IMG/VR virus record: IMGVR_UViG_3300037487_001276 | Coordinates: 1 to 29,041 of that record | DNA length: 29,041 nt | DNA from: a virus | Reading direction: 5' to 3' (one strand) | Shown: in pieces, positions 16,949 through 28,049 of the stretch | Layout: each line of letters begins with the position of its first letter | How positions within the stretch are numbered: the stretch's first letter is position 1 | Translations under genes and position numbers: made by a program | Notes under the pieces: generated by a model | What the model saw: the letters and a program-made list of their open reading frames with translations, nothing else | What the model was told of the DNA's origin: nothing | Database searches by the model: none

Positions 16949-16951
16949 AAA
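16942..16951 (-). promoter_or_regulatory. Putative late promoter motif TTTAGTGTAA before PhoH
   Basis: TTTAGTGTAA on the minus strand ends 13 nt before ATG 16928. It is identical to the portal copy, and at the divergence point of the two arms it would drive the whole leftward operon. Confidence 0.5.
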
Positions 16952-16956
16952 AACAA

Positions 16957-17436: not shown

Positions 17437-17465
17437 TTGCGATTAGTCCGCCGCTCTGGTACTCT
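17437..17465 (+). promoter_or_regulatory. Class A leaderless promoter (unit 17472)
   Basis: TTGCGA, a 17-nt spacer and TACTCT are followed by TTGGGC and then ATG 17472. The A-rich upstream sequence AAAAAAGATC is shared with the promoters at 18893 and 19705. Confidence 0.8.
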
Positions 17466-17471
17466 TTGGGC

Positions 17472-17801
17472 ATGGAAACAACCACACCAACCACTGCTCC
17501 TAGTCTCAAAGCCGCTTATACCGCTGTTCCTCTGGAAACAACCACTAAGGTCAACGATGGAAAAGTAACCACTTGCTACTGCGCCAAGGAACAAATCACT
17601 TGTGACTATGGCTACAATACGATCAAAACTTTTGAGGTTGGTGAACAAATTCATGGTGAACACCATGAAGATGGACTTGCTCAAGTGGACGGATACGATT
17701 GCCTTGTTTGTGAAATCATTCCTTGGGACAAGATCATCACCCGTTCATTCATCACGGTGCGTGAAACAAAAGTCACCACTTGGGAAATTCTCGATAAATA
17801 A
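17472..17801 (+). CDS. Hypothetical protein, Thr-rich N-terminus
   Basis: This 109-residue protein starts at ATG 17472. An in-frame TTG at 17466 lies between the -10 box and the ATG and cannot be in a transcript that begins at the ATG. The first 30 residues are rich in Thr, Pro and Ala and probably flexible. The rest includes CYCAKEQITCDYGYNTIKTF, a His/Glu stretch (GEQIHGEHHEDG) and DCLVCEIIPWD, giving a scatter of Cys and His that could bind metal, although no standard finger spacing is seen. The gene is a single-gene unit, and the next promoter begins 13 nt after its stop. Confidence 0.75.
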   Translation: METTTPTTAPSLKAAYTAVPLETTTKVNDGKVTTCYCAKEQITCDYGYNTIKTFEVGEQIHGEHHEDGLAQVDGYDCLVCEIIPWDKIITRSFITVRETKVTTWEILDK

Positions 17802-17814
17802 AACAAAAAAGATC

Positions 17815-17843
17815 TTGCATAACCCTAAAAAATAAATTATACT
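17815..17843 (+). promoter_or_regulatory. Class B leaderless promoter (unit 17850)
   Basis: TTGCAT, a 17-nt spacer (AACCCTAAAAAATAAAT) and TATACT are followed by 6 nt and ATG 17850. An almost identical copy lies at 19129-19157. Confidence 0.82.
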
Positions 17844-17849
17844 TTTGCC

Positions 17850-18110
17850 ATGACTAACACCAATACACCATTCGAAATCGGACAACTCACCACCCAAGGA
17901 ATCTTCCTTGGTATGCAAGGCACACTTGCAAAGTTCCGAAAGGGTTCAATGCTCTGCATCATCTCGCCCCTTGTTGCCAAGGCAATCACTCAAGAAGAGT
18001 TAGATGCTAGCCTTGCAAGCCAAGAGGCTTGCCGTGCAAGAGGCTTCTTCAGCAATGCGACCATCCTCCCTGCCTTGGAAGCGGTCAAAGCTGTTGCTTG
18101 GGAGAGATAA
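17850..18110 (+). CDS. Hypothetical small protein
   Basis: This 86-residue protein is followed by a hairpin terminator. The N-terminal part (PFEIGQLTTQGIFLGMQGTL) looks beta-rich and the C-terminal half is Ala-rich and helical (QEELDASLASQEACRARGFF). No known family is recognised. The leaderless class B promoter puts the transcription start on its ATG. It has no terminator before it, only the 48-nt gap that holds the promoter, so read-through from the preceding gene is also possible. Confidence 0.75.
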   Translation: MTNTNTPFEIGQLTTQGIFLGMQGTLAKFRKGSMLCIISPLVAKAITQEELDASLASQEACRARGFFSNATILPALEAVKAVAWER

Positions 18111-18140
18111 GCTGTTAGCCTAACATCTAGCAGTCTAACA

Positions 18141-18168
18141 GCCCACCCCTACAAGGGTGGGCTTCTTG
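18141..18168 (+). terminator. Rho-independent terminator
   Basis: GCCCACCC and GGGTGGGC form an 8-bp stem around a 6-nt loop, followed by TTCTTGTT. This is the least T-rich tail among the right-arm terminators. Confidence 0.75.
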
Positions 18169-18190
18169 TTGCCCACGCCCTAACATAAGT

Positions 18191-18269
18191 CATAAGTCAT
18201 TGATACTAAACGAGTTATGCAAGCGCCCCCGCCCCGCGCTCGTAACTCATTGATAATGAATGAGTTATG
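18191..18269. repeat. Twin-palindrome unit 1
   Basis: Palindrome 18191-18219 (CATAAGTCATTGA ... GAGTTATG) and palindrome 18241-18269 (CGTAACTCATTGA ... GAGTTATG) have centres 50 bp apart and flank a C-rich block in forward orientation (GCGCCCCCGCCCCGC). A TGTCAAG box follows near 18283. Confidence 0.85.
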
Positions 18270-18323
18270 TAATCAATGCATATGTCAAGCATTAAATAAA
18301 TAAACAAATAAACAAAATAGTTC

Positions 18324-18351
18324 TTGCGTTTATCTTAAAAACTCGTATTCT
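18324..18351 (+). promoter_or_regulatory. Leaderless promoter (unit 18358)
   Basis: TTGCGT, a 16-nt spacer and TATTCT are followed by TTGGGC and ATG 18358. Confidence 0.78.
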
Positions 18352-18357
18352 TTGGGC

Positions 18358-18510
18358 ATGTCAATTGATTCACTTGCTCACGCCGATTCCTTAGAACTCC
18401 TCGCCATGTTCTCCAATGCTGAAATGATGATGGAGTTCGAAATGGAGATGGATCTCCTAGCCCAAAAGATCGAGGCATCCACGCCCGATCCAACCCCAGA
18501 AAACCGCTAA
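18358..18510 (+). CDS. Small acidic Met-rich protein (50 aa)
   Basis: This short frame is supported by its leaderless promoter (6 nt between TATTCT and ATG) and by a TAATG overlap of its stop with the next start. The product is acidic and strikingly methionine-rich in the middle (AEMMMEFEMEMDLL, about residues 22-35), probably one amphipathic helix. It ends in a Pro-rich tail ASTPDPTPENR that resembles the ASTPDPEPED segment of the protein at 20781-21164. The function is unknown. Confidence 0.72.
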   Translation: MSIDSLAHADSLELLAMFSNAEMMMEFEMEMDLLAQKIEASTPDPTPENR

Positions 18511-18716
18511 TGTATACTGTTAGATACTACCTTGTTGTCCCCCTTGCCGTGCGGCAAGGGGTTGCCATGCATAGCTCGCCCAAAGAGGCTATGCGTCACG
18601 CCATCTCCCGCGCCTATGATGCCTCTGAAGCATCTGGTGGGTGTGAGAGTATAGGTGTTGAGGGGTATACAATGTGCCTTGATGGTAAGGTCATCCATAC
18701 CTTCTGCGACATCTAA
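18510..18716 (+). CDS. Hypothetical small protein
   Basis: This 68-residue product starts at the ATG of a TAATG overlap with the 50-aa gene, so translation is probably coupled. It begins with a beta-like YTVRYYLVVPLAV segment, then a helix (SPKEAMRHAISRAYDASEA), and ends with a strand-like stretch (GYTMCLDGKVIHTFCDI). This beta-alpha-beta arrangement resembles many tiny phage domains, but none is recognised. No hairpin terminator follows; the twin-palindrome unit begins 6 nt after the stop. Confidence 0.68.
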   Translation: MYTVRYYLVVPLAVRQGVAMHSSPKEAMRHAISRAYDASEASGGCESIGVEGYTMCLDGKVIHTFCDI

Positions 18717-18722
18717 GATCAG

Positions 18723-18801
18723 CGTAACTCGTTAAGGCTCAACGAGTTACGTCAGCGCCCCCGCCGCGCCGCTGCAACTCGTTGATAATGAGTGAGTTAT
18801 G
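18723..18801. repeat. Twin-palindrome unit 2
   Basis: Palindromes at 18723-18751 and 18773-18801 have centres 50 bp apart around a forward C-rich block (GCGCCCCCGCCGCGCC). They are followed by three TGTTAG copies (18805-18835) and TGTCAA. No terminator precedes it. Confidence 0.85.
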
Positions 18802-18892
18802 TAAGTTGTTAGAATGCTGTTAGAAGGCTGTTAGGAAATAGCTGTCAACAAAAAAGTGCAGAAAAAAAAGAATTAAAATAGCAAAAAAGATC

Positions 18893-18921
18893 TTGCGGTT
18901 CGGTCGCCGCTGTGGTACTCT
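18893..18921 (+). promoter_or_regulatory. Class A leaderless promoter (unit 18928)
   Basis: TTGCGG, a 17-nt spacer and TACTCT are followed by TTGGGC and ATG 18928. The spacer TTCGGTCGCCGCTGTGG is nearly identical to that at 19711-19727. Confidence 0.82.
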
Positions 18922-18927
18922 TTGGGC

Positions 18928-19119
18928 ATGGAAATGAACGACTTCAACAACTGGATGAAAGAAAACGAATTGCAAGGTGAAGCTTACGACATGGGATACG
19001 CCGAAGGTGTTGAAGTTTACTGGAACGAAGAAGAAGGTAATGGTAATCAATACGAAGCTGGTTCGTTGAATTGGTTCTTGTTCGAAGAAGGAAAAGCTCA
19101 AGCTGGTCAAGATTTGTGA
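18928..19119 (+). CDS. Small acidic protein
   Basis: This 63-residue, strongly acidic protein starts at ATG 18928, not at the in-frame TTG six bases earlier, which lies upstream of the predicted transcription start. It contains NDFNNWMKENELQGEAYDMG and a run of Glu and Asn (WNEEEGNGNQYEAG). Small acidic early phage proteins often act as DNA mimics or host-protein inhibitors, but nothing here specifies such a role. It is a single-gene unit followed after 9 nt by a class B promoter. Confidence 0.72.
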   Translation: MEMNDFNNWMKENELQGEAYDMGYAEGVEVYWNEEEGNGNQYEAGSLNWFLFEEGKAQAGQDL

Positions 19120-19128
19120 AAAAACCTC

Positions 19129-19157
19129 TTGCATAACCCTAAAAAATAAATTATACT
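19129..19157 (+). promoter_or_regulatory. Class B leaderless promoter (unit 19164)
   Basis: TTGCAT, a 17-nt spacer and TATACT are followed by TTTGCT and ATG 19164. From TTGCAT onward it is identical to the 17815 promoter over 34 bases. Confidence 0.82.
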
Positions 19158-19163
19158 TTTGCT

Positions 19164-19448
19164 ATGACCAACGATAATTACATCGCAGACCTGAAGGAAT
19201 TATATCAATCAGTAGTCACTTGGGGTGACTACAAGGAGGCGGGGAAAATCTCAGAGGAGATCGAACGTCTCAAAAAAAGAGACATCGTCGCCCAATTAGG
19301 GCAATCCTCGTTCTCAACGGGACGTGCGATGTTCCCAAATGCCATCGTCATCAACCAGACCTACTCAAGGTCATTAGAGATCGATGGCGACAACTACAGA
19401 CCAAACCTGCATGACTCTGGTCATGTGATGGGATGGCACTGCGTCTAA
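19164..19448 (+). CDS. Hypothetical protein with N-terminal helical hairpin
   Basis: This 94-residue protein begins with about 45 residues of charged helix (YIADLKELYQSVVTWGDYKE, then AGKISEEIERLKKRD), resembling a helical hairpin or short coiled coil. A Ser/Asn/Tyr-rich half follows, ending DSGHVMGWHCV with two His and one Cys. No family is recognised. It uses a leaderless class B promoter and is followed by a strong terminator, so it is probably the only gene of its transcript. Confidence 0.74.
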   Translation: MTNDNYIADLKELYQSVVTWGDYKEAGKISEEIERLKKRDIVAQLGQSSFSTGRAMFPNAIVINQTYSRSLEIDGDNYRPNLHDSGHVMGWHCV

Positions 19449-19458
19449 CGGTCTAACA

Positions 19459-19486
19459 GCCCACCCGCAAGGGTGGGCTTCTTTTT
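19459..19486 (+). terminator. Rho-independent terminator (GCAA loop)
   Basis: The 20-nt GCCCACCCGCAAGGGTGGGC hairpin (8-bp stem, GCAA tetraloop) is followed by TTCTTTTT and then the GTTAGATTCTAAC palindrome at 19488-19500. Confidence 0.9.
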
Positions 19487-19526
19487 AGTTAGATTCTAAC
19501 AGCTTTTTAGATCAAAACCTCACTTT

Positions 19527-19605
19527 CGTAACTCACTAAGTCTCAACGAGTTATGACCGCGCCCCCGCCGCGCCGCCGCAACTCGTTGAGTATCAAGGAC
19601 TTATG
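19527..19605. repeat. Twin-palindrome unit 3
   Basis: Palindromes at 19527-19555 and 19577-19605 have centres 50 bp apart around a forward C-rich block. Three TGTTAGA copies lie at about 19611-19639 and TGTCAAG near 19648. The second palindrome has non-matching arms (AACTC with GACTT). Confidence 0.85.
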
Positions 19606-19704
19606 TAAGTTGTTAGAAGTTGTTAGAACGCTGTTAGACAGTTTTCTGTGGTAGCTGTCAAGAGTTTTCTTAAAAAGAATTTTCAAAATAATGTAAAAAA
19701 GATC

Positions 19705-19733
19705 TTGCGATTCGGTCGCCGCTATGGTACTCT
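19705..19733 (+). promoter_or_regulatory. Class A leaderless promoter (unit 19740)
   Basis: TTGCGA, a 17-nt spacer and TACTCT are followed by TTGGGC and ATG 19740, with A-rich ATGTAAAAAAGATC upstream. Confidence 0.83.
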
Positions 19734-19739
19734 TTGGGC

Positions 19740-19955
19740 ATGAAGAACTACCAAGTTACCATCGAATTCTCATCCACCACTGAGTGTTTTTTCCTTGAAA
19801 TCCAAGCTCAAGACGTTCGCCCAGCAATCGAAAATGCTGTAAAGCAAATGAAAGAGGCTTATCCTTACTTTGCAGAGGGAAAAGATTACTCGATTGCCGA
19901 AGTCAAATTAGTTGAACACTTTGAACATTTTGAGTGCGGCGTTTGGCACAAATAA
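19740..19955 (+). CDS. Hypothetical small protein
   Basis: This 71-residue protein starts at ATG 19740. It has a beta-strand start (YQVTIEFSSTTECFFLEIQA), a helix (VRPAIENAVKQMKEAYPYFA) and an acidic, strand-like end (YSIAEVKLVEHFEHFECGVW). A beta-alpha-beta arrangement of this size is common in small phage proteins, but the family is not recognised. The leaderless promoter and the adjacent downstream promoter (8 nt after the stop) make it a one-gene unit. Confidence 0.74.
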   Translation: MKNYQVTIEFSSTTECFFLEIQAQDVRPAIENAVKQMKEAYPYFAEGKDYSIAEVKLVEHFEHFECGVWHK

Positions 19956-19962
19956 AAACTTC

Positions 19963-19990
19963 TTGCATAACCCAAAAAACCCTTTATACT
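19963..19990 (+). promoter_or_regulatory. Class B promoter with a short leader (unit 20012)
   Basis: TTGCAT, a 16-nt spacer and TATACT lie 21 nt before ATG 20012. Unlike its class B relatives it leaves a leader of about 15 nt (ending CCAAAAAAAAC). Confidence 0.78.
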
Positions 19991-20011
19991 CACCTCGTAA
20001 CCAAAAAAAAC

Positions 20012-20266
20012 ATGACACTAGAATACAACACCCCAAGCGAAAAACTCGCATCAGAATTGACTGGAAAAACCGTTAGATACTTTGCTAACAAGTCCAAGGT
20101 GACTAAGGATGGCGTTCGCGTCTTCAAGATCGAATCGGTTGAAAAAATCAGCTTTGCCGTTAAGACTGGAAAGCGTTTCGTGACTGTTCTTGCAAAGGAC
20201 ATTGACGACTCTGGCGTTGCCAAGTATCGCAATCTGCAACTAGCAGGAATCGACTTGGTAGTCTAA
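20012..20266 (+). CDS. Small basic beta-rich protein
   Basis: This 84-residue basic protein starts at ATG 20012, which follows an A-run leader and agrees with the promoter position; an upstream in-frame ATG at 19934 lies before the promoter and belongs to the previous gene region. It is rich in Lys, Val and Thr, with alternating strands (GKTVRYFANKSKVTKDGVRV, then VFKIESVEKISFAVKTGKRF). This suggests a small beta-barrel, perhaps nucleic-acid binding, but no motif is decisive. It is followed after 59 nt by a small membrane protein gene in the same unit. Confidence 0.74.
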   Translation: MTLEYNTPSEKLASELTGKTVRYFANKSKVTKDGVRVFKIESVEKISFAVKTGKRFVTVLAKDIDDSGVAKYRNLQLAGIDLVV

Positions 20267-20325
20267 TCGAAAAGCCCTGAGCATGGCGGGAAAAGGCTCT
20301 TCTAACAACTAACATAAAAAATTAA

Positions 20326-20517
20326 ATGAAAAAAAATCTTATCCTAATCTTCGCAATCGTCGGCTCTGCTCTTTTACACTTTGGGATTGTCGTCCCTGTC
20401 TTGCTGTTTGCTAGCGGTCTTGTACCTCTAACAGAAGTAAATGCCGCCATCTTGTTAGGTGCAATGGCAATCAACACCTATGCTTTGGTTAGACTCCACA
20501 CTTGGAACCGAGCCTAA
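20326..20517 (+). CDS. Small two-segment membrane protein
   Basis: This 63-residue hydrophobic protein begins MKKN. Its first transmembrane segment is about residues 4-30 and its second about 36-55, with a short C-terminal tail ending HTWNRA. It would sit in the host inner membrane. Small early membrane proteins of phages often serve lysis timing, superinfection exclusion or membrane takeover; none is shown here. Its ATG follows an A-rich stretch (ACATAAAAAATTAA) without Shine-Dalgarno. A terminator follows 10 nt after the stop. Confidence 0.72.
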   Translation: MKKNLILIFAIVGSALLHFGIVVPVLLFASGLVPLTEVNAAILLGAMAINTYALVRLHTWNRA

Positions 20518-20527
20518 CAGTCTAACA

Positions 20528-20555
20528 GCCCATCCGCAAGGGTGGGCTTCTCTTT
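20528..20555 (+). terminator. Rho-independent terminator (GCAA loop)
   Basis: The hairpin GCCCATCCGCAAGGGTGGGC (a C-to-T change gives a G-U pair, keeping the stem) is followed by TTCTCTTT. Confidence 0.87.
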
Positions 20556-20575
20556 AGCCACATTCTAACAGAAGT

Positions 20576-20654
20576 CATAACTCACTAAGGTTCAACGAGT
20601 TATGACCGCGCCCCCGCCCCGCCGCCGCAACTCGTTGATAATCAACGAGTTATG
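20576..20654. repeat. Twin-palindrome unit 4
   Basis: Palindromes at 20576-20604 and 20626-20654 have centres 50 bp apart around a forward C-rich block. The second has perfect AACTCGTTGA/TCAACGAGTT arms. Three TGTTAG copies follow to 20689, then TGTCAAG near 20697. Confidence 0.87.
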
Positions 20655-20745
20655 CAAGTTGTTAGAAGGGTTGTTAGACTGCTGTTAGGTCGAGCCTGTC
20701 AAGCTTTTTCTCAAAAATAATTCTTTGAATAATGCAAAATAGTTC

Positions 20746-20774
20746 TTGCGATTCGTCGGTTTCCACCCTACCCT
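20746..20774 (+). promoter_or_regulatory. Leaderless promoter (unit 20781)
   Basis: TTGCGA, a 17-nt spacer and TACCCT are followed by CTGGGT and ATG 20781. Upstream AAAATAGTTC is shared with the promoters at 18324 and 21421. Confidence 0.78.
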
Positions 20775-20780
20775 CTGGGT

Positions 20781-21164
20781 ATGGCGTTTCCATCCAATCC
20801 TGCCGAGTACGAAGAATATGTTTCCATCATGAACGAAATGGCTGAACAAGCCATTGCGTCCACGCCCGATCCTGAGCCAGAAGATTTTGGTGGGCGTTGC
20901 GAAGATGCACCCTGCTGCGGGTGCTGCGGCAACGAAAATTACGAGTCCGCGATGGACTACGAACGCCAACGCGAGGAGTTCGAAGATAATTACTCGCCCG
21001 ATGAGGAGTCGGATGAGCTTCGCCAACGCGAAGAGGACGACGAGCTTCGCCAACGCGAAGAGGACGAGGGTCGCGATGATTTTGATCCAGAGGATCGGTA
21101 TCTTGACTCGCAATGGGAGGACGCAAACGAGTACGGCATGGAGGGGTGCTGCGGCGACTTCTAA
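20781..21164 (+). CDS. Acidic Cys-cluster protein with tandem nonapeptide repeat
   Basis: This 127-residue protein is very acidic (Glu and Asp dominate residues 52-118). It carries a dense cysteine cluster C40, C45, C46, C48, C49 (RCEDAPCCGCCG) and a second pair C123-C124 near the end (GCCGDF). Residues 78-86 and 87-95 are an exact tandem repeat DELRQREED, mirrored by a 27-bp DNA duplication at about 21012-21065. The cysteines could bind metal, and the acidic segment could mimic DNA or bind a basic partner; both are guesses. Its leaderless promoter and terminator make it a single-gene unit. Confidence 0.75.
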   Translation: MAFPSNPAEYEEYVSIMNEMAEQAIASTPDPEPEDFGGRCEDAPCCGCCGNENYESAMDYERQREEFEDNYSPDEESDELRQREEDDELRQREEDEGRDDFDPEDRYLDSQWEDANEYGMEGCCGDF

Positions 21165-21174
21165 TGGTCTAACA

Positions 21175-21203
21175 GCCCACCCGCAAGGGTGGGTTTCTTT
21201 TTG
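21175..21203 (+). terminator. Rho-independent terminator (GCAA loop)
   Basis: GCCCACCCGCAAGGGTGGGT is followed by TTCTTTTT. The GTTAGATTCTAAC palindrome follows directly (about 21204-21216). Confidence 0.9.
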
Positions 21204-21242
21204 GTTAGATTCTAACAGCTTTTTGCTTTAAAGGCTTGTTTC

Positions 21243-21321
21243 TGTAAGTCGTTGAAACTCAACGAGTTACGGGCGCGGGGCGGGGGCGCAGCCATAAGTC
21301 GTTGATAATCAATGAGTTATG
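21243..21321. repeat. Twin-palindrome unit 5 (GC block inverted)
   Basis: Palindromes at 21243-21271 and 21293-21321 have centres 50 bp apart. The block between them reads GCGCGGGGCGGGGGCGC, the reverse complement of the forward block. TGTTAGA copies follow (21337-21362), then TGTCAAG near 21372. Confidence 0.86.
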
Positions 21322-21420
21322 AATTTGGGGCGAATCTGTTAGAAGCTGTTAGACTGATGTTAGGCGGGGGCTGTCAAGCACTATTTAGAAAAAAACATTC
21401 ACAAAAGATCAAAATAGTTC

Positions 21421-21449
21421 TTGCGGTGAGTCGTTTCTTTCGCTACACT
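21421..21449 (+). promoter_or_regulatory. Leaderless promoter (unit 21456)
   Basis: TTGCGG, a 17-nt spacer and TACACT are followed by TTGGGC and ATG 21456. Confidence 0.8.
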
Positions 21450-21455
21450 TTGGGC

Positions 21456-21647
21456 ATGAAGACAAAGTTCTACAAAATTGAAAACGGTGCAAGATACGTT
21501 CATTTCGCGACTTCAAGATTTGGGGTGATACTCACAAGCAGAAGCAACCTATCAAAAGAATTGATGATCGAAAAAATCAGTAGACAAGAGGCGGCAAATA
21601 TGTTAAGATTTGCCCGTGCTAAGATGGCAACCATCACCATCAGATAA
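21456..21647 (+). CDS. Small basic protein
   Basis: This 63-residue basic protein starts at ATG 21456, directly at the predicted transcription start. It shows two or three strands (KTKFYKIENGARYVHFATSR, FGVILTSR), then a helix with EKISRQEAANMLRFARAKM. The layout resembles small DNA- or RNA-contacting domains, but no family is recognised. It is the first gene of a three-gene unit with two membrane proteins (21667 and 22116) and a shared terminator. Confidence 0.72.
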   Translation: MKTKFYKIENGARYVHFATSRFGVILTSRSNLSKELMIEKISRQEAANMLRFARAKMATITIR

Positions 21648-21666
21648 TCTCTAACAAAAAAACAAA

Positions 21667-22104
21667 ATGAAAATGAACCAAATCCTATTCGTGCTAACCC
21701 TAGCTCCACTCGTCATCTGTTTCTTTTACGTTATGATTCTAATCTACTTTGAGAAAAAACACGAAAAAAGAGAGTGCAAAGATCTATCAGATTGGATTCT
21801 TCAGAAAAAGAAGTTAGAAAAAACCGAGATCGAAAAAGAACTCGACCGTCTAATCAAATCCACCAAGGGTAAATTCTTTTCTGTTTCTTTTAAGCAGAAA
21901 GATGGAACAATAAAAACATTCAACGGCAAAGACTTTTACAAGAGAATCGAATTCGATAACATGAATTCATTCGGCTTTGTTGACCCTAACAAAAAAACCA
22001 TTTTCAAGAACCAAAAAAAGGGAGGATGGCAGAAGGACATTGGCGAGATCGTGCAATTCAAATGCGGAGCAAAGACAGACTTCGTGACTTTCAACAAAAT
22101 CTAA
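21667..22104 (+). CDS. Membrane-anchored protein, possible SH3-barrel (DUF2693/WYL_2-like) domain
   Basis: This 145-residue protein has an N-terminal transmembrane segment (about residues 5-28) followed by a charged linker helix with many Lys and Glu (residues 30-68). The C-terminal domain begins GKFFSVSFKQKDGTIKTFNG and continues with strand-like segments to the end. The pattern F-x-V-x-F-x-x-K-D-G-T resembles the small Sm/SH3-like barrel proteins (DUF2693) common in phages, but fused here to a membrane anchor. This match is from memory of the family pattern and is tentative. The start follows CTAACAAAAAAACAAA without Shine-Dalgarno. Confidence 0.7.
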   Translation: MKMNQILFVLTLAPLVICFFYVMILIYFEKKHEKRECKDLSDWILQKKKLEKTEIEKELDRLIKSTKGKFFSVSFKQKDGTIKTFNGKDFYKRIEFDNMNSFGFVDPNKKTIFKNQKKGGWQKDIGEIVQFKCGAKTDFVTFNKI

Positions 22105-22115
22105 CAAACAAAAAA

Positions 22116-22283
22116 ATGAAATCAATACTACTAATGATGTTTTTCAGTGCCGCCCACATCTTTATCTTTCTAGCAGTTAGAAGGTATACGGATATCAATC
22201 CAGAAATAAATTTTCTAATGTTCTGGGGATGCATGGCATTGACTTGGGCGGCGACCATAAAAGCCGTCTCAAGAGTAATCTAG
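22116..22283 (+). CDS. Small two-segment membrane protein
   Basis: I start this 55-residue protein at ATG 22116, which follows an A-rich stretch 12 nt after the previous stop; longer in-frame starts would overlap the upstream gene heavily. It has two hydrophobic segments (about residues 3-21 and 31-50) separated by RRYTDINPE. It is the last gene of its unit, and the terminator begins 10 nt later. Its function is unknown. It resembles the 63-aa membrane protein at 20326 in size and layout, not clearly in sequence. Confidence 0.68.
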   Translation: MKSILLMMFFSAAHIFIFLAVRRYTDINPEINFLMFWGCMALTWAATIKAVSRVI

Positions 22284-22293
22284 CAACCTAACA

Positions 22294-22321
22294 GCCCACC
22301 CGCGAGGGTGGGTTTCTTTTT
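22294..22321 (+). terminator. Rho-independent terminator (GCGA loop)
   Basis: GCCCACCCGCGAGGGTGGGT is followed by TTCTTTTT and the GTTAGATTCTAAC palindrome at about 22323-22335. The loop is GCGA rather than GCAA and still fits GNRA. Confidence 0.9.
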
Positions 22322-22341
22322 GGTTAGATTCTAACAGAAGT

Positions 22342-22420
22342 CATAAGTCGTTAAGGATCAACGAGTTACGCAAGCGCCCCCGCCCCGCCGCCATAACTCG
22401 TTGAGTATCAGTGAGTTATA
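22342..22420. repeat. Twin-palindrome unit 6
   Basis: Palindromes at 22342-22370 and 22392-22420 have centres 50 bp apart around a forward C-rich block. The first has unmatched arms (AAGTC with GAGTT). This lies in the 300-nt gene-free stretch 22284-22583, which holds terminator, unit, third palindrome and promoter and no gene that I can see. Confidence 0.86.
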
Positions 22421-22457
22421 GAAATGGGCGTTCTAATGGAAATCTAACAAGTGTATT

Positions 22458-22486
22458 CATAACTTGTTGACACTCAACGACTTATG
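22458..22486. repeat. Third palindrome after unit 6
   Basis: CATAACTTGTTGA ... TCAACGACTTATG has its centre 66 bp after the second palindrome of unit 6, the same offset as the extra palindrome at 28483. A GTCAAG box follows at 22489. Confidence 0.75.
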
Positions 22487-22546
22487 GGGTCAAGCCCTAT
22501 TTGGTCTATTTCTTGTTATTCTTGTTATTCTTAACTCAAAAAAATG

Positions 22547-22574
22547 TTGACACTCTAAACTTTTTTGCTACTCT
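22547..22574 (+). promoter_or_regulatory. Sigma70 promoter for the 22584-24426 operon
   Basis: TTGACA (consensus -35), a 16-nt spacer and TACTCT are followed by 9 nt and ATG 22584, so the leader would be at most about 3 nt. Confidence 0.78.
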
Positions 22575-22583
22575 TTTCTCGAA

Positions 22584-22694
22584 ATGAAAATTCAAATCAC
22601 TCTCAAGCCCATTAAACAAAGAATCCACTTTGCTCCTCCCACAAAATACTTTGCGGATAAAAAGAAGAAGCAGAATAAAAATGCTTGCCGTTAG
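22584..22694 (+). CDS. Small basic peptide (36 aa)
   Basis: This very short frame is supported by its place directly behind a strong promoter (9 nt from the -10 box to the ATG). The product is highly basic (KADKK-like runs near residues 24-33) with a Pro/His/Phe centre (RIHFAPPTKYF). No family is recognised. Because it opens a seven- to eight-gene unit it could also act as a leader that starts translation of the operon, but no arrest-like sequence is evident. Confidence 0.5.
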   Translation: MKIQITLKPIKQRIHFAPPTKYFADKKKKQNKNACR

Positions 22695-22722
22695 AATTAA
22701 AATCAATTAAAATACCCACGAC

Positions 22723-22875
22723 ATGAAACTACTAAAGAAAATCTATCATCTAATCAATCCGCCGATTCCGCCAACCTATGGCAAAAGTATCTTTGACCAA
22801 AAATCTTGGTTGACAAGAAAGGTCGAAGATGAACAATGGAAACAAGCAAAGGCTAACATTTATAAAACAAGATGA
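22723..22875 (+). CDS. Small basic protein (50 aa)
   Basis: This frame begins MKLLKKIYHLINPPIPPTYG and ends ANIYKTR. Its stop overlaps the next start as ATGA, which supports real translation. The N-terminal 12 residues are an amphipathic basic helix, followed by a Pro-rich turn and a charged helix with Trp (SWLTRKVEDEQWKQAKANIY). It might be a membrane- or partner-binding adaptor. The function is unknown. Confidence 0.6.
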   Translation: MKLLKKIYHLINPPIPPTYGKSIFDQKSWLTRKVEDEQWKQAKANIYKTR

Positions 22876-23198
22876 TCACTCAAGAAGAAGCAGACTGTTT
22901 CATTAGACTAACACTTAAACAGTGGAATCTTCAAATGCCTTTCGAGTGGACTAACACTCAGCGGCGTTTGGGTGCATACGATATAAAAAATCGCCGCATT
23001 GAACTTTCGCGGCAAATCTTGAATTCTTTTCCTTTGTTTAAAGAAGTCTTCTTGCACGAACTAGCCCACGCATTAGACTTAAAAGAAAGAAATCATTTGT
23101 TTCATAAGAACGGCAGATGCTCATTCCACAACCGCACTTGGAAAAAATGGTGCTTGACTCTTGGCATTCCCGCCCGTAGATTGATTCCCGCAAAATAA
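22872..23198 (+). CDS. SprT-like zinc metalloprotease
   Basis: This 108-residue protein carries the zinc-protease signature HELAHALD (H62, E63, H66) preceded by LFKEVFL, and a downstream SFHNRTWKKW in which H86 is a candidate third ligand. These features, with the short RRIELSRQIL strand ahead of the motif, match the SprT/Spartan-type fold. Bacterial and phage SprT-like proteins are thought to act on DNA-linked proteins or have an unknown role; cytoplasmic action is expected because there is no signal peptide. It is coupled by an ATGA overlap to the preceding 50-aa gene and followed after 4 nt by the next gene. Confidence 0.85.
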   Translation: MITQEEADCFIRLTLKQWNLQMPFEWTNTQRRLGAYDIKNRRIELSRQILNSFPLFKEVFLHELAHALDLKERNHLFHKNGRCSFHNRTWKKWCLTLGIPARRLIPAK

Positions 23199-23202
23199 AA
23201 AC

Positions 23203-23400
23203 ATGACAACCATTGAAGAACTAATAAACACAATCGAGGAACTAAACTCCCTCGCCACAAAAGCTCTCGATGCTCTCGATCTCATCGATGAAACATCTCT
23301 TCTTATCGATTCTTATCATTTGCGTAATATCGCTATCGTGACAAAAGAAATGAGAGAAAGATTGAAACAAATCATTGACGAACACAGAGAAAACGATTAA
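23203..23400 (+). CDS. Small coiled-coil protein
   Basis: This 65-residue acidic protein is almost wholly helical, with Leu/Ile at heptad-like spacing (IEELINTIEELNSLATKALD, then RNIAIVTKEMRERLKQIIDE). It probably forms a helical dimer or bundle. It lies 4 nt after the SprT-like gene, within the same operon, preceded by AAAATAAAAAC without Shine-Dalgarno. No function is recognised. Confidence 0.68.
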   Translation: MTTIEELINTIEELNSLATKALDALDLIDETSLLIDSYHLRNIAIVTKEMRERLKQIIDEHREND

Positions 23401-23409
23401 ACTACGCAC

Positions 23410-23754
23410 ATGGACACACTACCAACACCACCCGCAATTATCAAAGTGAATGCCGACTTGTCACAAGGTCTCGACCTTCGCAACCCACTTCATGCCAAGG
23501 CGTATCTCAAAGCAGCAAGCCACTTCCTTTCCTCTTGGAATCAAGAATGGTCTGCCGAAAAACTTTGTCTCGTTATGATCGCAGACGAAGAAGACGATGC
23601 CGCAATGAATGACCGCAAAGAAATATTGGTTTGGTCTGCCATCTCAAATTGGGAACTTCACCCGATGGACGATACCGATCCTTGGTACTTTGTCGAAGAA
23701 TTGATCAATGGACTAGCCGAGGACTTTCTAACCTTTTTATCAGAAAACGCATGA
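23410..23754 (+). CDS. Hypothetical acidic protein
   Basis: This 114-residue soluble acidic protein is rich in Trp, Asp and Glu, with an N-terminal Pro-rich segment (DTLPTPPAIIKV), a helix (LHAKAYLKAASHFLSSWNQE) and a C-terminal DPWYFVEELINGLAEDFLTF helix. No catalytic motif is visible. It lies 9 nt after the previous gene and its stop overlaps the next start as ATGA. The function is unknown. Confidence 0.7.
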   Translation: MDTLPTPPAIIKVNADLSQGLDLRNPLHAKAYLKAASHFLSSWNQEWSAEKLCLVMIADEEDDAAMNDRKEILVWSAISNWELHPMDDTDPWYFVEELINGLAEDFLTFLSENA

Positions 23755-23915
23755 AACATCTTGTTCTAACAGTACACTCTGGACTTGTGTCATATCAACT
23801 TAGTACAGCGGCGAGAGTATCGTCTGGCTCGCATCCTTTGGGTGACGATACCCCTCAACAGGTCATCGACTATCTGATTTCAATCATCAAACCGACAACG
23901 CACGAAGTAATATGA
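23751..23915 (+). CDS. Hypothetical small protein (54 aa)
   Basis: ATG 23751 is chosen because it forms ATGA with the upstream stop, and the same frame's stop forms ATGA with the next start (23912); longer in-frame starts would overlap the upstream gene. The product has strand-like HLVLTVHSGLVSYQLSTAA, a Gly/Ser loop and a helix DDTPQQVIDYLISIIK. No family is recognised. Confidence 0.65.
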   Translation: MKHLVLTVHSGLVSYQLSTAARVSSGSHPLGDDTPQQVIDYLISIIKPTTHEVI

Positions 23916-24112
23916 AAAAGTACACAGAGAAGCAAGTCTGGAATCTAATAAAACAATTGGGTTGGTCTGCTACGATATGCGACCATGAACCCTGCTATGG
24001 TCAAATGACTATACAGGTTGCTCTCCATGAGGACATGCCTTATCTTGCCGAATTCGTTCAAGATGCAGGCGGACTTTATACTTTTGTTTTTTATACCGAA
24101 GAAAGTAATTGA
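23912..24112 (+). CDS. Hypothetical small protein (66 aa)
   Basis: This 66-residue protein begins with a basic helix (YTEKQVWNLIKQLGWSATIC), then DHEPCYGQMTIQVALHEDMP, and ends with a strand-like LYTFVFYTEESN. Three of its residues (C30, H32, C36) are a loose Cys/His group without a standard spacing. It is joined by an ATGA overlap to the upstream gene. The function is unknown. Confidence 0.68.
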   Translation: MKKYTEKQVWNLIKQLGWSATICDHEPCYGQMTIQVALHEDMPYLAEFVQDAGGLYTFVFYTEESN

Positions 24113-24144
24113 CTAACCAACCAAACCAACCAATAATCCCTCAC

Positions 24145-24426
24145 ATGAATTCATCCGAACTAATCCAAGCAATCGAAAACGACAAAGCAGCATCTTACTG
24201 GTTAATCGATCAAATCCGCTTAATCGGTAAGAGAGACATCTTCGACTTTATGCGAGATGTCGAAACTCTAAACGATGTCCTGCAACTTCAATGGCATGAG
24301 ATGACGCAAGAACGAATGAAGAAAGAACGCAATGCTCAAATGCTGGAGACATCGACGCTCTGGAAAAGGGATCAAGAACGTATGGTCAAAGATTTTCTCG
24401 CTGGTAAATGCGAGCATCCCATCTAA
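24145..24426 (+). CDS. Hypothetical helical protein
   Basis: I start this 93-residue protein at ATG 24145, although an in-frame TTG at 24109 overlapping the previous stop would add 12 residues rich in Asn/Pro/Gln. It is charged and mostly helical (MNSSELIQAIENDKAASYWL, then a long Met/Lys/Glu-rich helix near residues 55-85). No motif is recognised. It ends the 22584-24426 operon, and a terminator begins 29 nt later. Confidence 0.7.
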   Translation: MNSSELIQAIENDKAASYWLIDQIRLIGKRDIFDFMRDVETLNDVLQLQWHEMTQERMKKERNAQMLETSTLWKRDQERMVKDFLAGKCEHPI

Positions 24427-24455
24427 CATTTTCTGGTTAGTGTTAGTGTTAGTCG

Positions 24456-24483
24456 CCTCCACCCGAAAGGGTGGAGGTTTTTT
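24456..24483 (+). terminator. Rho-independent terminator (GAAA loop)
   Basis: CCTCCACCC, a GAAA tetraloop and GGGTGGAGG are followed by TTTTTT. This is a longer variant of the common right-arm terminator, and a TGTTAGAGTCTAAC palindrome follows it. Confidence 0.92.
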
Positions 24484-24502
24484 GTTAGAGTCTAACGGAA
24501 GT

Positions 24503-24581
24503 CATAAGTCGTTGAAACTTAGCGAGTTATGGCGGCGGGGCGGGGGCGCGGCTGTAACTCCTTGAGTATCAGTGAGTTACG
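24503..24581. repeat. Twin-palindrome unit 7 (GC block inverted)
   Basis: Palindromes at 24503-24531 and 24553-24581 have centres 50 bp apart around GGCGGCGGGGCGGGGGCGCG, the reverse complement of the forward block. There are no TGTTAGA repeats after it; the promoter follows within 30 nt. Confidence 0.85.
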
Positions 24582-24608
24582 AAAAGAATAAAAAAGAATA
24601 AAAAAGCA

Positions 24609-24636
24609 TTGACCTTATCCACCCCCATGCTATCTT
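24609..24636 (+). promoter_or_regulatory. Leaderless promoter (unit 24643)
   Basis: TTGACC, a 16-nt spacer and TATCTT are followed by ACTCCC and ATG 24643. Confidence 0.74.
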
Positions 24637-24642
24637 ACTCCC

Positions 24643-24948
24643 ATGCAAACGCTATTTGAATATCGATCAGAACTCGCATCCTTACCAGAATATCGCATCC
24701 ACCGTCCCGATGCTTGCCAAACATTCATGGCAAGCGTAGAGCATAAAGAAGAAGATGATGATGAAATCTTGTTAGAAACAATCTTCTCACTTTGCAATCG
24801 TGGCTCACGCCATGAGCATCCGCAATTTGATCAAACACCAATTCCTTCTCTTTCGTTAGGGGATTGTGTAAAATTAGGTTGCAACTATCGAGGCGAACCT
24901 GTACGAATCTATCGATGCGAAGCTCAAGGTTGGACTAAACTCTTTTAA
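24643..24948 (+). CDS. YodL-like (SLSLGD motif) hypothetical protein
   Basis: This 101-residue protein has a Glu/Asp-rich middle (residues 33-47) and a C-terminal segment PSLSLGDCVKL (68-78) followed by a Gly/Arg turn and YRCEAQGWTKLF (90-101). The form SLSxGDxV then GW near the end recalls the YodL-like and related small domains of phages and plasmids, whose function is unknown. The match is by motif only. The leaderless promoter supports the ATG at 24643. The gene is followed closely by the gene at 24953. Confidence 0.72.
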   Translation: MQTLFEYRSELASLPEYRIHRPDACQTFMASVEHKEEDDDEILLETIFSLCNRGSRHEHPQFDQTPIPSLSLGDCVKLGCNYRGEPVRIYRCEAQGWTKLF

Positions 24949-24952
24949 TAAT

Positions 24953-25330
24953 ATGAAACAAATCCGCGTTTACTATAACTTCCACAAAAAACTCTTCTCT
25001 GTTCAAGAGAAGGTGAATGGTTCTTGGAAGGTCGTCGAGTATACTAACGAAATCTTTATCCGCAACGCTACCTTCAAGGTAAGCGAGGCGGGGCGGCAAA
25101 GGGTGCTGAAGGAAAAAAGGAAAAACGTTCATGCGTTTATCATTGGTGAGCGTTTCCCTTTCATCCCCAAGTCTTTTGTTTATCGTGATGAGGTTTCTTA
25201 TAACCCATACAAGGGGGAAAATTTTATCATCACCAAGGAAGACAAACCTCTTGACTGGGCAAAATACGTCACTATACTGAACGGGAAGGTGATTGCACTA
25301 ATCCCCGAATTCAAAGGAGTAAGAATCTAA
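24953..25330 (+). CDS. Conserved phage hypothetical protein (YYNFHKK family)
   Basis: This 125-residue basic protein begins with strand-like IRVYYNFHKKLFSVQEKVNG, has a central VSEAGRQRVLKEKRKNVHAF segment, and a VSYNPYKGENFIITKE segment (about residues 80-95). I recognise the pattern as one recurring in phage genomes as an uncharacterised protein, but I cannot name a function. It lies 4 nt after the previous gene and is followed by the 24-aa frame at 25335 with a 4-nt gap, so it is part of the same operon. Confidence 0.72.
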   Translation: MKQIRVYYNFHKKLFSVQEKVNGSWKVVEYTNEIFIRNATFKVSEAGRQRVLKEKRKNVHAFIIGERFPFIPKSFVYRDEVSYNPYKGENFIITKEDKPLDWAKYVTILNGKVIALIPEFKGVRI

Positions 25331-25334
25331 CAAT

Positions 25335-25409
25335 ATGATATACATTGACCAAAAAATAACTACATGGGAACGATTCGAAACCGTGAGTGATCTGGGAGGT
25401 GCGGCGTGA
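25335..25409 (+). CDS. Putative leader peptide or micro-gene (24 aa)
   Basis: A short ATG frame begins 4 nt after the previous stop, and its TGA overlaps the GTG start at 25406 (GTGA). It encodes IYIDQKITTWERFET and then a Gly/Ala-rich end. The last codons include GGGAGG 6 nt before the GTG, so the frame might exist mainly to couple or activate translation of the next gene. A random frame cannot be excluded. Confidence 0.4.
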   Translation: MIYIDQKITTWERFETVSDLGGAA

Positions 25410-25660
25410 ACACCTTGCAATTTCTCCAGTCGTTTTCACCCAATCGGTTGGATCGGTACAGGCAACCATCTGCTACAAGTGAAAGCGTGTTGCGTTTACT
25501 CAACATCGAACTCGCCGAAATTCACGCTCGCTGGATGGCTGGGAGTGATCCCGAGACGTGGGCTAAGTACGAATGCAAGCGGGATGAGCTAACTGCTCTT
25601 GACAACACTCCACCATCATGCCTCCCTACGGATTTCACTTTCTGCGGAAGAGGCATCTAA
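25406..25660 (+). CDS. Hypothetical protein with GTG start and a Shine-Dalgarno
   Basis: This 84-residue protein starts at GTG 25406, the only non-ATG start I accept in the window and the only start here with a good Shine-Dalgarno (GGGAGG 25396-25401, 4 nt before TGC...GTG). It has a basic N-terminus (FLQSFSPNRLDRYRQP), a central helix (SESVLRLLNIELAEIHARWM) and a C-terminal Cys/Pro stretch. Its GC content is higher than that of its neighbours. No family is recognised. It could have been acquired from a phage or host with a canonical ribosome-binding site. Confidence 0.68.
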   Translation: MNTLQFLQSFSPNRLDRYRQPSATSESVLRLLNIELAEIHARWMAGSDPETWAKYECKRDELTALDNTPPSCLPTDFTFCGRGI

Positions 25661-25686
25661 CAATAAAACACTAACTAAATAAAAAT

Positions 25687-26052
25687 ATGGGATTAGATCA
25701 GTTCGCATACGTTACAAACCTAAAGACTGAGGAAAAAAGTGAATTCGGCTATTGGAGAAAGCACAATGCTCTCCAAGGTTGGATGGAAAACCTTTGGCGT
25801 TCCAAGGGTTGCCCTAACAAGGAGAAAGATAGCGAAGACTTCAACTGCATTCCGTTAGATTTGACCCATGAAGACCTCGACGCTCTAGAAAAGGATCTGT
25901 TAGATTCTCGACTGCCAGAGACCAGAGGTTTCTTTTTCGGTTCTAGCACGGCGAGCGACAATCCGCATTTGTTAGATGATCTGGGCTTTGTGTCTCAAGC
26001 GAGGAAGCATTTGGATTCTGGTCTAGAGATCGAATACTTTTCTTGGTGGTGA
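25687..26052 (+). CDS. Conserved phage hypothetical protein (GYWRKxN / GFFFGS)
   Basis: This 121-residue protein begins MGLDQFAYV and contains GYWRKHNALQGW (residues 21-32) and GFFFGSSTAS (81-90). Proteins with MGLDM/Q, YWRK-N and FFFGS-type segments recur in many tailed phages; none has a proven function to my knowledge. It lies 26 nt after the previous gene and is preceded by ACTAAATAAAAAT, without Shine-Dalgarno. No hairpin terminator follows; the twin-palindrome unit 8 starts 12 nt downstream. Confidence 0.77.
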   Translation: MGLDQFAYVTNLKTEEKSEFGYWRKHNALQGWMENLWRSKGCPNKEKDSEDFNCIPLDLTHEDLDALEKDLLDSRLPETRGFFFGSSTASDNPHLLDDLGFVSQARKHLDSGLEIEYFSWW

Positions 26053-26063
26053 CACAACAACCC

Positions 26064-26142
26064 CGTAACTCGTTGTAAATCAGCGAGTTATGGCGGCGGG
26101 GCGGGGGCGCGGCTGTAACTCGTTGATAATGAACGACTTATG
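26064..26142. repeat. Twin-palindrome unit 8 (GC block inverted)
   Basis: Palindromes at 26064-26092 and 26114-26142 have centres 50 bp apart around the inverted GC block. A CTAACAGAAC and a TGTCAAG box follow (26157-26180). No terminator precedes it. Confidence 0.85.
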
Positions 26143-26231
26143 AATCTATCAGAACCCTAACAGAACGCCGCTGTCAAGAATTAAATTCAAGATGCCCCAA
26201 AAATAAAAAACGAAAAACAATAAAAAAGATG

Positions 26232-26259
26232 TGGACAAATCCGCTCGTTCTGGTAATCT
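26232..26259 (+). promoter_or_regulatory. Promoter with ordinary leader (unit 26301)
   Basis: TGGACA, a 16-nt spacer and TAATCT precede ATG 26301 by 41 nt, so the leader would be about 35 nt, ending in an A-run (ACCAAAAAAAAAT). This is one of the few right-arm genes not predicted leaderless. Confidence 0.6.
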
Positions 26260-26300
26260 CTCCTTGTTGCCGCTGATGGCACTCACAACCAAAAAAAAAT

Positions 26301-27044
26301 ATGTCACTAATTATTGCAAAAAACAAAGTATCCACCGAACAGCTCGCGACCTCTTTCACTCCAGAGGGAACCGATTCTTTTCAACCCATCTCCCACTCAT
26401 CCCTTGTCTCTTACACCAGAGACGCGATTGAACGTGCGGGTCTTTCCATCGTCGATGAAGAACACTCTCTTGCGAGAGCAGGTCAACGCTACTTCGGGGG
26501 CTTTGCTCTTACTGGTTCCGATATCACGGGTTCAGACCGTCAAATTGTGTTAGGCTTGCGTAACGCACACGACAAAAGTTTCGCCGCTTCGGTGTGCGTT
26601 GGAAATCGCATGATGGTCTGCGAAAATCTTTGCTTCTCTTCGGATGTAAAGCTCGCTCGTCGCCACACGACGAACATTCTAACCGATCTTCCTCGCGTCC
26701 TTGCCGATGCTGTGGGGCGTGTTGTTTCTCATTGGAACGACATGGGAAATCGTATCGAGGCTTATCAGCAGACCGAAATTTCTCGCGACCGTGCCGCCGA
26801 TCTTCTAATCGATTTAGTTGACTCCAAGGCTTTCCCTGCTCGCGAAATCTACAACGCTGTTCAAGAATTCCGCAACCCTCGCCACGAAGAATTCAAGGGT
26901 GGCACTCTGTGGACGTTGTACAACTCCATCACCGAAAATCTCAAGGGCGGCGACCTTGCCAAGTTGCCTTTCCGAACGATGACCACGCAAAGCATCTTCG
27001 ACCGTGTGAGCGGTCACAAGAATGCAATCGCCCTTCCCGCCTAA
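26301..27044 (+). CDS. DUF932 family protein
   Basis: This 247-residue protein matches the DUF932 (phage/plasmid-related) family in the core GLRNAHDKSFAASVCVGNRM (residues 85-104), VCENLCFSSDVKLARRHT (106-123), an AYQQTEIS-type helix, and a late NAVQEFRNPRHEEF and TLWTLYNSITENLKGG stretch. Members occur in phages, plasmids and integrated elements. The function is unknown and probably soluble, cytoplasmic. The start has an A-rich leader and no Shine-Dalgarno. A promoter lies 41 nt upstream, and a terminator follows 16 nt after the stop. Confidence 0.88.
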   Translation: MSLIIAKNKVSTEQLATSFTPEGTDSFQPISHSSLVSYTRDAIERAGLSIVDEEHSLARAGQRYFGGFALTGSDITGSDRQIVLGLRNAHDKSFAASVCVGNRMMVCENLCFSSDVKLARRHTTNILTDLPRVLADAVGRVVSHWNDMGNRIEAYQQTEISRDRAADLLIDLVDSKAFPAREIYNAVQEFRNPRHEEFKGGTLWTLYNSITENLKGGDLAKLPFRTMTTQSIFDRVSGHKNAIALPA

Positions 27045-27060
27045 CAGCTAACAGCTAACA

Positions 27061-27090
27061 GCCTCCACCCGCAAGGGTGGGGGCTTTTTT
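27061..27090 (+). terminator. Rho-independent terminator (GCAA loop)
   Basis: The stem CCTCCACCC/GGGTGGGGG with a GCAA loop is followed by CTTTTTT and a GTTAGACTCTAAC palindrome (about 27091-27103). Three tandem CTAACAG copies precede it (27043-27061). Confidence 0.9.
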
Positions 27091-27109
27091 GTTAGACTCT
27101 AACCAAAGT

Positions 27110-27188
27110 CATAACTCGTTAAGTATCAACGAGTTACGCGAGCGCCCCCGCCGCGCCGTCATAAGTCGTTGAAAACCAACGACTTATG
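27110..27188. repeat. Twin-palindrome unit 9
   Basis: Palindromes at 27110-27138 and 27160-27188 have centres 50 bp apart around a forward C-rich block. The second is a perfect 12-bp inverted repeat (CATAAGTCGTTG ... CAACGACTTATG), with G and C exchanged relative to other copies, showing a compensating pair. Confidence 0.87.
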
Positions 27189-27259
27189 TAAACCGTTAGA
27201 AAGATGTTAGACTCATCTGTCAAGCATAAAAAAATGATTAAAAATGATTAAAAAATCGC

Positions 27260-27287
27260 TTGCCAAGTCCCTGCTATCTGCTAAGGT
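27260..27287 (+). promoter_or_regulatory. Leaderless promoter (unit 27294)
   Basis: TTGCCA, a 16-nt spacer and TAAGGT are followed by CTGCTC and ATG 27294. The -10 box is a weak match, so confidence rests on the shared 6-nt spacing and the A-rich upstream sequence. Confidence 0.58.
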
Positions 27288-27293
27288 CTGCTC

Positions 27294-28049
27294 ATGTCAC
27301 TACTCAACTCAGGCAACAGTAAAACACGCAAGGGCGAAAAAAAAGGCTTCACAACCTACGGCTTGCATTTAGCACCGTCCAATCTATCAGGTTTCAACGT
27401 ATGCAAGGACGCATCTATCGGGTGCGGAAATGCCTGTCTGAATACTGCGGGGCGGGGTGCAATGAATTCAGTCCAGAAAGCACGAATCAAAAAAACGCTT
27501 TTCTTTTTTAAGGACAAGCAAAAATTCCTTGCCGAGCTTTGGGCGGAAGTCGCAAAATCTATCAAGTCGGCATCACGCAAGGGGATGACTCCCTGCTTTC
27601 GTCTCAACCTAACGAGTGACTTGCCTTGGGAAAAAATCAAATTCAACGGGCAAAATGTTTTCGAGGCTTTCCCCCTTGTAACCTTTTATGATTACACTAA
27701 ATCCCCCGAACGGATGACTGCCTTTCTTTCGTCGCAAAGAGTACCGCAAACATGGGCGGGTAACATGGCATGGGTGGCACAAGGTGGGCGAGATTTCCCA
27801 AAAAATTATCATCTCACTTTCTCACGCAGTGAAACGAATGGCGAGATTGCTTTGTCTTTCCTTAAGTCTGGCGGCAATGTCGCGATGGTCTTTCGCCATC
27901 ATCTCCCCACTTCTTACTTGGGATTCGAAGTCGTTGACGGTGACGAAACGGATTTGCGGTTCCTTGACGGGTCTGGAAAGATTATCGGTCTGAAGGAAAA
28001 AGGTCTTGCAAAAAAGGATGAAACGGGCTTTGTTCTTGAACCCGCATGA
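27294..28049 (+). CDS. Gene product 88-like (GP88) phage protein
   Basis: This 251-residue protein closely follows the gene product 88-like pattern: TRKGEKKGFTTYGLHLAPS (residues 11-29), FNVCKDASIGCGNACLNTAG (34-53, with C37, C44, C48), NSVQKARIKKTLFFFKD, FYDYTK, YHLTFSRSE, and a GLKEKGLAKKDETGF end. The conserved cysteines could bind metal or an iron-sulfur cluster, which is an inference. Members occur in actinobacteriophages and other phages and have no established activity. Its leaderless promoter supports ATG 27294. The stop overlaps the start of the 23-aa gene as ATGA. Confidence 0.87.
   Translation: MSLLNSGNSKTRKGEKKGFTTYGLHLAPSNLSGFNVCKDASIGCGNACLNTAGRGAMNSVQKARIKKTLFFFKDKQKFLAELWAEVAKSIKSASRKGMTPCFRLNLTSDLPWEKIKFNGQNVFEAFPLVTFYDYTKSPERMTAFLSSQRVPQTWAGNMAWVAQGGRDFPKNYHLTFSRSETNGEIALSFLKSGGNVAMVFRHHLPTSYLGFEVVDGDETDLRFLDGSGKIIGLKEKGLAKKDETGFVLEPA

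Follow-up and report, generated by a model that had tools for sequence, protein, structure and literature searches.

The cI gene of bacteriophage lambda is transcribed from PRM into a leaderless mRNA with a 5'-terminal AUG. Lambda has been named as the first leaderless case (PMC3160421), and the mechanism described for leaderless mRNA is 70S initiation at the 5'-terminal AUG (PMC9031893). In Deinococcus-Thermus, a TANNNT motif about 6-7 bp before the ORF is the -10 element of promoters that yield leaderless mRNA (PMC12340547), and the TA-led genes of Zheng et al. 2011 are leaderless genes of the same TANNNT-before-ORF kind (PMC3160421). Thermus phage phiYS40 has leaderless middle and late transcripts according to a passage of PMC3594737 that cites Sevostyanova et al. 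2007. In Lactococcus cremoris, leaders are either shorter than 5 nt or near 40 nt (PMC10986495).

The phage units described here have in common with Deinococcus-Thermus and the TA-led genes a TANNNT -10 box some 6-7 bp before the ORF. In Deinococcus-Thermus, however, these are cellular genes amounting to about a third of the genome, the -10 box alone can suffice, and genes with Shine-Dalgarno motifs coexist with them; here the genes are those of phages, a -35 box is nearly always present at a spacer of 16-17, and Shine-Dalgarno-like motifs occur at the level of chance. Whereas lambda cI is a single leaderless gene, the lineage examined here appears to use a systematic design; whereas the leaderless transcripts of phiYS40 are reported for middle and late genes and 33% of its starts have Shine-Dalgarno-like motifs, the candidates here are presumed early genes whose motifs are at chance. 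The geometry and its precedent (the Deinococcus -10 motif, phiYS40) are already known; what is new is a family-wide array of small, putatively leaderless units.

Layout and promoter-ATG units of the window

The window, meaning the whole stretch of DNA analysed, is a 29,041-base virus record (IMGVR_UViG_3300037487_001276) that represents a fragment of a tailed phage. Its minus-strand genes (Table 1) include one for a sigma-70 region 2 protein that might serve other (late) promoters, and its plus strand from 16957 onward carries many small genes, including those for an SprT-like protein, a DUF932 protein and a GP88 protein. We label this plus-strand block early on the basis of its position or gene order and its promoter type. 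Promoters, terminators and a palindromic element between units indicate short transcription units of one to several genes each. The element, 100 nt long, occurs in ten copies between 18193 and 28468, mostly directly after terminators, and consists of two palindromes (CGTTGATAATCAACG type) flanking a GC-rich core. A tRNA-Arg (TCT) gene lies at the end of the early block (28595-28669, minus strand). At the opposite end, positions 1-700 are a GC-richer, repeat-like coding stretch (GC 0.47 across the first kb), apparently Ig-like repeats, as judged by eye, belonging to a long protein that the contig end truncates.

The original prediction was that ten genes of this block have a sigma70-type -35 box, a 16-17 nt spacer, a -10 box, exactly 6 nt and then ATG, and that two more, at 16957 and 22584, have 8-9 nt; all ten have this arrangement, and the other two have 8 nt and 9 nt, respectively. 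The prediction understated the pattern, missing an eleventh start with 6 nt (23410, whose promoter overlaps the end of the preceding gene); four starts have 7-9 nt. Not every unit is leaderless, since 20012 and 23203 have good promoters at gaps of 21 and 20; altogether, promoters lie 20-41 nt upstream of the ATG at 20012, 23203 and 26301.

Table 1. Candidate promoter-ATG units and other features of the window (promoters are written as -35 box, spacer, -10 box, gap and start codon; "new" marks units absent from the original prediction)
Feature	Positions	Strand	Promoter and start	Gene end or remark
Terminase	11271-13163	-		tailed-phage block
ERCC4-type nuclease match	13169-14119	-		
Sigma-70 region 2 protein	15177-15857	-		kept in relatives
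PhoH	16248-16928	-		
Short leader	16921..17193	+	TTGGAC-16-TACACT-8-ATG at 16957	
Candidate leaderless unit	17437..17801	+	TTGCGA-17-TACTCT-6-ATG at 17472	17801
Candidate leaderless unit	17815..18110	+	TTGCAT-17-TATACT-6-ATG at 17850	18110
Candidate leaderless unit	18324..18510	+	TTGCGT-16-TATTCT-6-ATG at 18358	18510, equal to the next gene's start
Candidate leaderless unit	18893..19119	+	TTGCGG-17-TACTCT-6-ATG at 18928	19119
Candidate leaderless unit	19129..19448	+	TTGCAT-17-TATACT-6-ATG at 19164	19448
Candidate leaderless unit	19705..19955	+	TTGCGA-17-TACTCT-6-ATG at 19740	19955
Leadered contrast unit	19963..20266	+	TTGCAT-16-TATACT, 21 nt to ATG at 20012	
Candidate leaderless unit	20746..21164	+	TTGCGA-17-TACCCT-6-ATG at 20781	21164
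Candidate leaderless unit	21421..21647	+	TTGCGG-17-TACACT-6-ATG at 21456	21647
Gap-9 class, predicted 3-nt leader	22547..22694	+	TTGACA-16-TACTCT-9-ATG at 22584	
Gap-9 class, predicted 3-nt leader	22685..22875	+	TTGCCG-17-TAAAAT-9-ATG at 22723	new
Leadered contrast unit	23154..23400	+	TTGACT-17-TAGATT, 20 nt to ATG at 23203	
Candidate leaderless unit	23375..23754	+	TTGACG-17-TAAACT-6-ATG at 23410	23754; new
Candidate near-leaderless unit	24109..24426	+	TTGACT-17-AATAAT-7-ATG at 24145	new
Candidate leaderless unit	24609..24948	+	TTGACC-16-TATCTT-6-ATG at 24643	24948
Candidate leaderless unit, GP88 protein	27260..28049	+	TTGCCA-16-TAAGGT-6-ATG at 27294	28049
Strong intrinsic terminators (n=8)	18140, 19458, 20527, 21174, 22293, 24455, 27060, 28321	+		closing units

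With the gap defined as the number of nucleotides between the end of the -10 box and the ATG, and a hit as a score of at least 7 bits against a sigma70 weight matrix, a gap-6 promoter precedes 9 of 28 gene-start ATGs and none of the 199 remaining same-strand ATGs (binomial P 2.5e-16); scoring with region-specific base frequencies gives 10 of 29 gene starts. Promoter-like sites as such are no commoner than in shuffled DNA (17 found, 17.1 expected), so that the signal lies in their position relative to the ATG. The ten starts are not independent, eight being apparent near-copies of one of two promoter cassettes: the first is found at 17472, 18358 (assigned by eye), 18928, 19740, 20781 and 21456, and the second at 17850 and 19164. 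Counted as five independent groups, the starts give P of about 9e-9.

Gap geometry in relatives

A terminase search located relatives, of which the best 80 of 176 loci were used; the gene order of terminase, sigma protein, PhoH and divergent block is common to many of these 80. The divergent blocks of the relatives, together with the GP88 relatives, supplied an early set of 362 distinct starts, most of them ATGs taken as starts by rule. A gap-6 promoter precedes 121 of the 362, as against 0-14 for each other gap up to 35; the runners-up are gap 9 (14) and gap 5 (10), and the scarcity of gaps 10-19 resembles the bimodal leader lengths of Lactococcus cremoris (PMC10986495). These counts are inflated by shared descent, but the non-redundant set left after removal of similar upstream sequences still peaks at gap 6 (36 of 210 starts, any other gap at most 6). 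When start positions are shifted at random, 0-3 of 383 match at gap 6, compared with 124 at the true positions. A TANNNT box 6 bp before the start codon is far above chance, and TTG[AC] accompanies it at a spacer of 16 or 17 in 118 of 149 cases and never at the remaining spacers between 11 and 24; by its sequence, the box appears to behave as a promoter -10 with a correctly spaced -35. Distant relatives reached through the sigma protein have gap-6 promoters in most cases, the numbers being small. Exact matches to GTACTCTTTGGGCATG elsewhere fall mostly in unrelated coding sequence, with a promoter in L107 only.

Orthologous genes tend to keep the gap. Many GP88 orthologues have gap 6 or 9 despite differing upstream sequence, the exceptions, which are not leaderless, being L086-L088 and L055; the GP88 start is consistent with the family profile, which begins to align at residue 3. 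The orthologues of 24643 in L083 and L085 have gap 6, and that family keeps a short gap, as does the family of 22723. In L003, the orthologue of 21456 has gap 6 and that of 16957 retains gap 8, and the match to 22584 in L083 has gap 9. In the window and in L083-L085 the DUF932 gene lacks a near promoter, whereas in L028, L055 (weak score) and L060 it has one at gap 6, so that the arrangement seems to change over evolution. Retention of the layout across a large uncultured phage lineage indicates that it is under selection.

Predicted RNA starts and competing explanations

The base before the ATG at gap-6 promoters is C in 82% and T in 18%, never A or G (n=121), whereas only 62% of starts without a near promoter have C or T at -1. 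In all 13 listed cases of the gap-9 class, the seventh base after the -10 box is a G that follows a pyrimidine. Both features fit transcription beginning 7 nt past the -10 box, that is, at the A of the ATG (gap 6) or at the G three bases before it (gap 9). Shine-Dalgarno-like motifs show no excess in the early set of relatives (2.9%, compared with 3.5% in shuffles), and are somewhat above shuffles in the late set (11.3% vs 6.3%). Because many genes of the early set have no near promoter, the host probably does without Shine-Dalgarno motifs as a requirement. The late block of the window and its relatives has no gap-6 peak. A smaller gap-5 group in the late block was considered as leaderless and rejected, its listed cases recurring at few positions with similar sequences. 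Leaderless transcription, with predicted 5' ends at the A of the ATG, is thus strongly supported by geometry, by the -1 pyrimidine, by the absence of Shine-Dalgarno motifs and by conservation in relatives.

In the model that we infer for these transcript 5' ends, their early timing, 70S initiation and a host translating without Shine-Dalgarno motifs, the right-hand divergent block would be a set of short transcription units, most of them transcribed from host-type sigma70 promoters and many ending at a strong intrinsic terminator. Where the -10 box ends 6 nt before the ATG, RNA polymerase would start at the A of the ATG, and in the gap-9 class 3 nt upstream; the mRNA would then carry a 5'-terminal or nearly 5'-terminal AUG, which 70S ribosomes would probably recognise with the help of initiator tRNA, independently of any Shine-Dalgarno interaction. 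The close promoters suggest that host ribosomes readily start on leaderless messages. Leaderless transcription of these phage genes is very likely, and the best reading, to which we assign a probability of about 0.88, is that this transcription starts at host-type promoters and has been conserved in an uncultured lineage of phages.

Three explanations would deprive the constant gap of this meaning. If one promoter cassette had been duplicated together with its ATG, the distance could be functionally meaningless, as the resemblance of eight of the ten units to two cassettes might suggest; yet 23410, 24643 and 27294 are unrelated to the cassettes and have the same gap, the peak survives in non-redundant upstream sequences, and diverged orthologues keep the gap, which makes copying alone highly improbable. 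It is very unlikely, too, that the promoters are real and the true start codons lie further downstream, giving leadered mRNAs: the starts of small genes are uncertain from sequence, but the GP88 profile alignment begins almost at the chosen start, orthologues mostly share their starts, the chosen starts show no excess of Shine-Dalgarno motifs, and the -1 pyrimidine and the strict gap are tied to the listed ATGs. That the motif beside the ATG is a translation signal rather than a -10 box is scarcely credible; it does occupy the position expected of a ribosome site, but the exclusive promoter-like spacing of TTG[AC] argues against this.

A different question is whether leaderless messages reflect a habit of the host or a strategy of the phage, in which the phage would alter the host's initiation apparatus so that its leaderless messages outcompete those of the host. 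A precedent is phiYS40, for which a passage of PMC3594737 reports that most middle and late transcripts are leaderless, with IF2 raised and IF3 lowered, and the lack of a gap-6 peak in the late block of the window and relatives also counts in favour of a phage strategy. The promoters here nevertheless look host-type, and the genes would be expressed before the phage could change its host; moreover, the subset of ORFs searched contained no recognisable initiation-factor gene. That Shine-Dalgarno motifs are lacking even where no promoter is near points more to a host habit than to a bypass of host control, and a phage strategy is on balance unlikely. The fuller account of host-native leaderless initiation, namely a widespread lineage with early arrays of small, individually promoted leaderless genes whose leaders are 0 or 3 nt long because the host natively uses 5'-terminal AUGs, is tentative and falls a little short of even odds.

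Host lineage, significance and other phages

The consensus of Bacteroidota promoters is TAnnTTTG, and this -7 element is present in 0 of 121 gap-6 promoters. A terminase scan of a genome collection gave one contig (L113, CAKZOO010000042.1), which belongs to a Flavobacteriaceae bin; among 149 Flavobacteriaceae genomes only this bin matched, and it holds two phages of the lineage. The bin was rejected as evidence of the host and treated as mixed, because those of its contigs that were read vary widely in Shine-Dalgarno content and show no clear gap-6 peak, and because the phage promoters are without TAnnTTTG. Verrucomicrobiota are a guess: Shine-Dalgarno motifs are scarce in part of the phylum (PMC10783764), and there is a weak match between the phage sigma protein and a Rhodopirellula/Verrucomicrobium model, with a score far under the model cut-off; no paper on leaderless transcription starts in Verrucomicrobia turned up in a literature search. 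If the host-native reading is true, the host would be a largely leaderless lineage outside Actinobacteria and Deinococcus-Thermus. With this geometry, transcript starts can be predicted to the single base for dozens of genes across many phages, and gene starts in such genomes could be called more easily. The units may supply a naturally occurring collection of leaderless messages, with leaders of either 0 or 3 nt, and may also mark, at the sequence level, phages and perhaps hosts whose translation does without Shine-Dalgarno motifs.

When the gap assay is applied to other phages, phiYS40 has a weaker gap-6 TANNNT peak (8 of 60 starts) and P23-45 has TANNNT at gap 6 in 3 of 86 starts, while T7, HTVC134P, Slash and D29 have no gap-6 signal above background. 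The promoter layout of the window would suit leaderless expression on the phiYS40 pattern, but phiYS40 does not appear in the relatives listed for the proteins searched, and no relationship to it was detected. Viral contigs were also scanned for one exact promoter at gap 6, with gap 8 as control, the two samples being drawn differently; among the matches listed, an ORF of at least 40 codons is opened in 98 of 125 cases at gap 6 compared with 24 of 80 in the control, and 7 of 98 contigs have at least three gap-6 promoters compared with 0 of 65. Single leaderless genes therefore seem widespread in phages, and arrays rarer. The most extreme case is a 148-kb phage contig (L206, IMGVR_UViG_3300020044_008989), in which the best promoter lies at gap 5 or 6 in 28 of 37 starts, with a pyrimidine at -1 in 29 of 29 sites counted at these gaps; over the part that matches, its terminase is a 43% relative of the one in the window, and it reads through an insert resembling an intein. 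An otherwise different 146-kb contig (L156, IMGVR_UViG_3300023174_000064; GC 0.55 in the stretch read) has several strong gap-6 promoters and a terminase 55-56% identical to those of Synechococcus phages. Another contig (L179, IMGVR_UViG_3300046092_000227) combines ten gap-6 promoters among 35 starts with few Shine-Dalgarno motifs.
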